Source: a virus | Reading direction: 5' to 3' (one strand) | IMG/VR virus record: IMGVR_UViG_3300034683_000092 | Location: 1 to 64,000 of that record | Length of the DNA: 64,000 nt | Shown here: positions 25,866 through 26,332 of the stretch, one piece after another | How positions within the stretch are numbered: position 1 is the first letter of the stretch | Layout: the number at the start of each line of letters is the position of its first letter | Translations under genes and position numbers: made by a program | Notes under the pieces: generated by a model | Told to the model about the DNA's origin: nothing | Database searches by the model: none | The model's input: only the letters and a program-made list of their open reading frames with translations

Positions 25866-25974
25866 ATAAAACTGCTTCTCTATATATAAAACACTTATGT
25901 GCACAACTACCCCCACCCAAATTAACCATATACATTTGTTATAAAAATAACAATCTATATATTGTTTATTTCCT

Positions 25975-26294
25975 TATTTTTGGGTAAAAGGAACCTACCT
26001 GAAAGTCTTACAACTCCCAGGCAATCCGCTCACGCTCCTATTGGATACGTATTTCTCACTTCGTATACGCTTATTCAGCTTAAACTTATAGGCGGCTCAT
26101 TCCACTTTTCTGACGTCTAGACCCGTTTATTATTATTAGTTTTCATCCTTAGTTATCTCTAGAGCGAATTTCCCTGTACCCTTTTCACAGCTTATGTGGC
26201 TCGCTAATCTAACGGAATTCTAGTGGAACATACAAGTCTATCATCCTTGTGATAATCCTTGCTAATCAATAGAAGATAAGCGTCAACTATTAAT
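25975..26294 (-). ncRNA. Long structured leader RNA before GroEL
   Basis: About 320 nt transcribed from the promoter at 26301-26332, ending ~110 nt before the GroEL start. It is clearly richer in G and C than the flanking DNA and contains many short helices, for example CAAG-ATTATCA/TGATAG-CTTG near 26240 and CCTG..AGT/ACT..CAGG near 26010. It contains no convincing ORF. It does not match RNase P, tmRNA, 6S or group I cores as I know them. It could be a cis-regulator, an independent ncRNA or both. Confidence 0.6.
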
Positions 26295-26300
26295 CAAGTG

Positions 26301-26332
26301 CAAAGATAATATATCTAAATTTAATATGCAAA
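26301..26332 (-). promoter_or_regulatory. Strong Bacteroidota promoter for leader RNA and GroEL
   Basis: -33 TTTG (26329-26332), 20-bp spacer, -7 TATCTTTG (26301-26308), on the minus strand. This is the best promoter match I found in the window. The structured RNA begins just downstream. Confidence 0.85.

Follow-up and report, generated by a model that had tools for sequence, protein, structure and literature searches.

A conserved pseudoknotted RNA in the late-transcript leader of crAss-like phages, with a tentatively proposed role in antitermination in cis

The put RNAs of phage HK022 are two short hairpins that lie in the leader just after a phage promoter, early in a long terminator-rich operon, and are proposed to act in cis on the host RNA polymerase (RNAP). 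The EAR element of Bacillus exopolysaccharide operons is a pseudoknotted leader RNA of roughly 120 nt, for which processive antitermination has been proposed. In the late leader of phage lambda, with its 6S RNA, tR' and Q, the gate is placed just after the leader and operates via a DNA-bound protein. CrAss-like phages, in which the present RNA was found, are among the most abundant human gut viruses. Leader RNAs of phage operons are a known kind; this family and its pseudoknotted architecture appear to be new. No description of the RNA was found in the literature; the main text of a survey of structured RNAs of the human microbiome (PMC8040213) makes no mention of crAss phages, and its supplementary tables may contain the RNA as an unnamed candidate.

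The window, as the whole analysed stretch of 64,000 nt is called here, is contained in a 96.6-kb virus record of a crAss-like phage of the Steigviridae type. The major capsid protein of this phage shares 63% identity with the counterpart in cr108_1, and its portal and terminase are matched by phage head families. The minus strand below about 26.3 kb constitutes the late operon, which contains GroEL, small genes, a GroES-like protein, a terminase with inteins, the portal and the capsid. The early and middle genes are situated to the right, on the plus strand. The late operon starts with the following features:

26301-26332, minus strand: first late promoter, TTTG-N20-TATCTTTG, in full TTTGCATATTAAATTTAGATATATTATCTTTG; fits the Bacteroidota consensus TTTG...TAnnTTTG and resembles the first late promoters of relatives
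24303-25865, minus strand: phage GroEL, 520 aa, here the first gene of the late operon (Pfam Cpn60_TCP1, 4e-68; PHROG 5725 chaperonin groEL, 2e-142)

The first-pass annotation had claimed a Bacteroidota promoter and, between it and GroEL, about 430 nt of non-coding sequence. This was confirmed by the consensus match and by the ORF check, in which no minus-strand ORF longer than 27 aa was found between about 26296 and the GroEL ATG (25865), save the upstream GTG extension of GroEL itself. Transcription from the promoter is expected to start at about 26293-26297. Exact matches to the consensus are not uncommon as such, numbering 5 in the 64 kb, compared with 2.3 expected in Markov sequence. The other intergenic matches on the late strand are located 18, 10, 24 and 38 nt ahead of ORFs at 23951, 17065, 12583 and 6117, respectively, and no second consensus promoter was found ahead of GroEL in the window. 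Compared with the leaders of 10-40 nt at the other late promoters, the one of about 430 nt from the 26332 promoter to the GroEL ATG is an outlier, and in this respect, too, the annotation was correct in calling it unusually long. Similar first late promoters (TTTGCATATnTC...TTACCTTTGCA) occur in relatives such as cr85_1, cr106_1 and the cultured phage 'tikkala'. A GC-rich palindromic element (GGCAAAGCAGGG...CCCTGC...ATGCC and GGGGGATACCCC) is located at 26528-26600, in the AT-rich divergent control region.

The leader had further been described as GC-richer over about 300 nt and as rich in helices. The GC content at 25950-26250 is about 40%, in comparison with 33% for the whole window; the enrichment is present but only modest. 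Folding of the lone sequence was weak and not decisive, with z = -2.5 for the whole leader and ordinary values for the 150-nt windows within it. The structure is established by comparison only, and the fold is counted as real because of the homologues described below; the description as helix-rich stands through that comparison, whereas folding alone is unremarkable.

Searches with Rfam 15 (including tmRNA, RNase P, 6S, ROOL, GOLLD and riboswitches) resulted in chance-level matches only, both for the window leader at E up to 10 and for its homologues, which bears out the earlier placement of the RNA outside the known families; tmRNA, RNase P and 6S identities were rejected on the same grounds. 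Neither the window leader nor two homologues (L055, L066) were matched by the group I intron model RF00028 at E values up to 10, while the terminase intron of the same phage, used as a positive control, was detected with E 2e-4. A group I intron was rejected on these grounds and because the element lies between a promoter and the first gene and interrupts no gene. A decayed tRNA array, a candidate prompted by synteny, was also rejected, since neither ARAGORN nor Rfam sees a tRNA in the leader, although in relatives such arrays lie downstream. The terminase intron itself (17818-18050, minus strand) is divergent and splits the terminase gene, scoring 24.5 bits, which is under the Rfam gathering score; the same gene also holds two intein-like insertions (18031-20751).

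No significant DNA similarity to the leader was detected in the named phages and 27 related records, nhmmer with the leader found nothing, and none of the close relatives sought via GroEL, terminase and MCP had a close copy. A blastn search with 7-base words against 1.25 Mb of fetched relatives gave a single significant match (E = 4e-5), 40 nt with 85% identity, located in the first-late-promoter leader of cr85_1 in the same orientation. The pattern derived from this match led to L055, and a relaxed pattern led to 14 viral stretches, 12 of which were judged by context to be real members. Two loci with the short pattern, L058 and L065, were discarded, as the remaining family motif was missing and the model score was at chance level. 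In bacterial genomes, the relaxed DNA pattern occurred in 19 stretches, only one of which (L078) had the family context, and this screen serves as a negative control. With cr106_1, 'tikkala', bajarodcaudo virus 1, L096 (from the genome of L027) and L101 (by pattern) added, the family comprises about 20 homologues.

A covariance model built from 12 members, with the window left out, recovered the window at 26207-26083 (minus strand) with 42 bits and E = 1.1e-8 on the window alone; the E values of this recovery ranged from 1e-7 to 1e-8. The same model also recovered L048, L053, L060, L063, L078 and L096. Phages without the RNA scored at or under about 15 bits, and no match was obtained with phi14:2, whose leaders are short, or with cr108_1. 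A search for a host origin under stricter filters gave 0 true matches in 247 Bacteroidales genomes; one weak match in this screen (L105) was low-complexity host sequence on reading. One carrier of the RNA, L063 (genome G037), has 7 in-frame TAG codons in its capsid gene, and a tRNA labelled Pyl by ARAGORN lies about 360 nt past its leader RNA; this phage is probably TAG-recoded, its late operon carrying a suppressor tRNA.

The elements of the RNA in the window, all on the minus strand, are:

25985-26297: conserved structured leader RNA, whole, about 310 nt (model match 26207-26083; the ends were deduced from the promoter on the 5' side and from the H3 partner on the 3' side)
26222-26230: P0 outer helix, 5' strand (UGUUCCACU), pairs with 26106-26098
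26098-26106: P0 outer helix, 3' strand (AGUGGAAUG), partner of 26222-26230
26206-26212: P0 inner helix, 5' strand (UUAGAUU), pairs with GGUCUAG; in the constrained fold, counterpart columns covary
26117-26123: P0 inner helix, 3' strand (GGUCUAG), partner of UUAGAUU at 26206-26212
26200-26205: H1, 5' strand (AGCGAG), pairs with UUCGCU at 26168-26163
26163-26168: H1, 3' strand (UUCGCU), partner of AGCGAG
26186-26198: H2 hairpin (CACA-UAAGC-UGUG); the homologous hairpin covaries in 4/4 pairs
26122-26157: near-invariant loop GAUAACUAAGGAUGAAAACUAAUAAUAAUAAACGGG, 85% identical over 40 nt to cr85_1 and conserved in all members
26146-26150: H3 pseudoknot, 5' strand AAGGA within the conserved loop, pairs with UCCUU at 25992-25988
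25988-25992: H3 pseudoknot, 3' strand UCCUU in GGUUCCUUUU; compensatory change that L060 also has, the family majority having GGUCUCUU
25995-26024: H5-type hairpin UUGCCUGGGAGU-UGUA-AGACUUUCAGGUAG, just 5' of the H3 partner (terminator/hairpin scan; a hairpin lies in the same place in relatives)

The conserved RNA covers about 26296-25985, with the final ~120 nt before GroEL outside it, and the size of the pseudoknotted element is about 110-310 nt. In P0, a strand 5' of H1 pairs with a strand right after ...AAACG, in an inner and an outer part. The own pairs of P0 had a mean of -21.6 kcal/mol, compared with -12.6 for between-phage mixes, and 0/20000 permutations were as good. H1 was paired in 100% of the family, 5 of its 6 pairs being changed on both sides. 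In the covariation test, 90% of the cells were paired versus 70% in shuffled alignments and 32-48% in slid controls, and double-changed cells numbered 61 versus 22. The column covariation including P0 scored 0.589 against 0.198, with 0/500 shuffles as good. The helices were picked by eye on the same sequences, a bias in their favour against which the controls and the compensatory changes guard. The H3 helix occurs as AAGAG/CUCUU in most members and otherwise as GAGAG/CUCUC, AAGAA/UUCUU or AAGGA/UCCUU (window and L060), and is fully paired in 15 of 18 sequences. Since H3 crosses P0, the sequence comparison identifies the RNA as pseudoknotted, with a P0-H1-H2 domain and H3. The long structured RNA which the first-pass annotation placed in the promoter-driven leader, outside the known families, is supported by the Rfam search and by the covariation that it had named as the point to check.

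P0, H1, H2 and H3 are all present in the window, although a long insertion that precedes the H3 partner confined the model alignment to the 5' half. When the core segment was folded alone, P0 formed in 13/13 sequences. In L057, L064 and L068 the conserved loop starts with CUAGGGAUAAC, which is similar to part of the 23S rRNA close to the peptidyl transferase centre, a resemblance that we take to be probably due to chance.

Wherever the flanks in these Steigviridae-type crAss-like phages permitted checking, the element came directly behind the first late promoter, at the head of its transcript and diverging from the early strand. The genes behind it start 30-190 nt after the element and vary in type (exonuclease-like, PI-PLC-like, small ORFs or GroEL), and in the fetched relatives tRNA arrays and a 10-kDa chaperonin gene come next, followed by the terminase. 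Most carriers of the RNA lack GroEL, several of these being records of 91-101 kb; no GroEL match was obtained in cr85_1, cr106_1, 'tikkala', bajarodcaudo virus 1 and three contigs of 91-96 kb. As the first gene varies and GroEL is absent from many carriers, the RNA is, on comparison of the genomes, an element of the late operon that is independent of GroEL, which argues for an operon-wide role that does not depend on a particular gene.

Further evidence on such a role was obtained from the terminators of the late operon, the relevant one in the window being:

21553-21575, minus strand: predicted intrinsic terminator, AGCCCAGGUUAAUAGCUUGGGCU UUUUAUG, in the gap that follows the GroES-like gene, 4 nt ahead of the ATG of the gene behind it (-13.6 kcal/mol)

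A strong intrinsic terminator was predicted in the same gap in 9/9 late operons read there (the window, crAss001, cr85_1, cr108_1, cr112_1, cr111_1, cr106_1, L055 and L061). The gap extends from the 10-kDa chaperonin gene to a gene of ~180 aa before the terminase, and the terminators lie 4-18 nt before the ATG. Their position is kept while the stem sequences differ, no consensus promoter was found near them in the nine operons, and the genes up to and including the terminase lie behind them. In L059 and L067, a perfect terminator separates the RNA from the first ATG. The host RNAP is believed to carry out the transcription of the late genes (PMC8375218, PMC10136315). The polymerase would have to get past these terminators, and the conserved RNA with which the transcript begins is the natural candidate for antitermination.

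In the proposed mechanism, the host RNAP would make the element RNA at the start of the late operon, and the element would then act in cis on the transcribing polymerase so that terminators along the operon are read through. The chief target would be the positionally conserved terminator ahead of the terminase genes. The mechanism would be processive antitermination directed by a leader RNA, like that of the HK022 put RNAs or the EAR element, with the near-invariant loop as the face that binds the polymerase or a factor, held by P0 and the pseudoknot. As in those systems, the leader heads a long operon with predicted terminators inside it. Judged from sequence, the RNA may well help the host RNAP to read through the whole operon; the full reading, a late-transcript leader with a conserved pseudoknotted RNA that antiterminates in cis, is favoured tentatively, at somewhat less than an even chance. 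Several observations speak against it: more late promoters lie downstream (17065, 12583, 6117), so that the operon need not depend on a single start; neither phi14:2 nor cr108_1 was found to have the RNA, although cr108_1 has the terminator; the element is larger and more complex than put; and in the whole window leader folded without the pseudoknot the comparative structure lies about 8 kcal/mol above the MFE. The terminators could also be merely leaky, setting the ratios of upstream to downstream genes.

A different conserved leader, GAGAAnAGGUUGAGGGUAAA...CUUGGGG...CCGCC, with a closing helix of its own, occupies the same slot in crAss001, cr112, cr128 and cr111. Its loci are:

L047:663-930 (crAss001); L104:3960-4200, minus strand (cr128_1); L054:7790-8000 (cr111_1): second-class leader, DNA motif GAGAAnAGGTTGAGGGTAAA...CTTGGGG...CCGCC
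cr112_1 (L049) and L109-L112: more loci of the second-class leader

The two classes share the slot, the promoter type and a bipartite closing helix whose end immediately follows a conserved CCGC, and differ in the conserved loop, which is GAGAAnAGGUUGAGGGUAAA...CUUGGGG in the second class. The own pairs of the second-class helix beat mixed pairs, 3/20000 permutations being as good, a test that included near-identical sequences and three unrelated pattern hits and is indicative only. The model of the window family (class A) did not match the second class, even unfiltered, and the crAss001-type leaders were therefore rejected as members. The second-class carriers crAss001, cr112 and cr111 also have the terminator in the conserved gap. 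That two RNA classes occupy one slot points to a shared task. The broader possibility is that Steigviridae universally carry a late-leader RNA, of at least two structural classes, that reprograms the host RNAP for the virion genes; this would be the first processive antitermination system based on RNA in crAss-like phages, and perhaps in Bacteroidota as well. This possibility is put forward with caution, as a minority prospect of some weight.

Like put, the leader RNA directly follows a phage promoter, heads a long operon with terminators and is proposed to act in cis. In contrast to put, it has a long closing helix, inner hairpins, a near-invariant loop and a pseudoknot, and its action is proposed only; we know of no sequence relation between the two. 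EAR is likewise a pseudoknotted leader but belongs to another host phylum and appears to differ in sequence, the present RNA having no Rfam match. The predicted terminators favour a leader RNA that would resemble put and EAR in action but probably not in membership. The lambda late leader shares the late promoter, the non-coding leader and the terminator-gated late operon, whereas here the conserved gate is kilobases downstream and the RNA itself is conserved. The crossing order of P0 and H3 is the same as that of P3 and P7 around the inner domain of group I introns; here, however, an extra conserved loop is situated between the H3 and P0 strands and no gene is interrupted. A concrete conserved RNA with a testable structure heads the late programme of crAss-like phages, matched by a conserved terminator downstream; it occurs in 'tikkala', which is cultured on Bacteroides cellulosilyticus, and adds to the known RNAs a strongly covarying family absent from Rfam 15. 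Should it direct antitermination, the element would rank as a new RNA that modifies the polymerase and would serve as a genetic tool in Bacteroides.

The RNA could instead be a discrete ncRNA that acts in trans, for example on the host RNAP, the ribosome or a defence system, and is processed or terminated off a promoter that is merely shared. Near-invariant loops and pseudoknots are typical for partner-binding RNAs, the perfect terminators of L059 and L067 stand right after the RNA, a second promoter precedes the tRNA array in L056, L062, L088, L053 and L048, and the window has an AT-rich hairpin with a U-run at about 25965-25935 (by eye). Most members, however, lack a strong terminator between the RNA and the first gene, the window has no second consensus promoter before GroEL, and the position of the element never varies; such an RNA is considered unlikely, though it is the strongest of the alternatives to cis antitermination considered here.

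The invariable location of the element at the extreme 5' end, with the closing helix near the start, would also suit a stabiliser of the mRNA or an insulator of translation against exonucleases or phage-encoded RNases, with no effect on transcription. Among the middle genes of crAss001 are those of an mRNase (HicA) and of an HKD nuclease (PMC8375218), which is in agreement with such a function. A simple hairpin would suffice for it, however, and neither the invariant ~36-nt loop nor the pseudoknot is easily accounted for in this way, which makes the stabiliser improbable.

A role of the transcript in replication, as a primer or as an origin RNA of the ColE1 RNA II or R-loop kind at the divergence of the genome arms, is more doubtful still. 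The minimum of the cumulative GC skew at 26750 lies beside the element, but the skew tracks the gene strand, which switches at the same point. Adjoining this minimum, within a 330-nt non-coding stretch, (A)AAGACGcTGAG(TT) occurs three times on the plus strand (27149, 27223 and 27323); these repeats may be iterons or early phage-polymerase promoters. As iteron-like repeats they would fit an origin, yet they are known from the window alone and the conservation is found in the late leader RNA. The temperature- or host-responsive switch of the chaperonin proposed by the first-pass annotation can practically be dismissed: the element does precede groEL in the window phage, but the same RNA is present in phages without GroEL and ahead of other genes, which refutes the gene-specific form, and the conserved element stops about 120 nt short of the groEL start. 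An incidental effect on groEL is possible.

Two more RNA-like features were observed on the plus strand of the window. A weak Rfam tRNA match of 32 bits is located at 34010-34113, where ARAGORN makes no call, and a group I intron (44685-44923, Rfam 66 bits) is situated just 3' of the DnaB-like helicase ORF 43172-44359.
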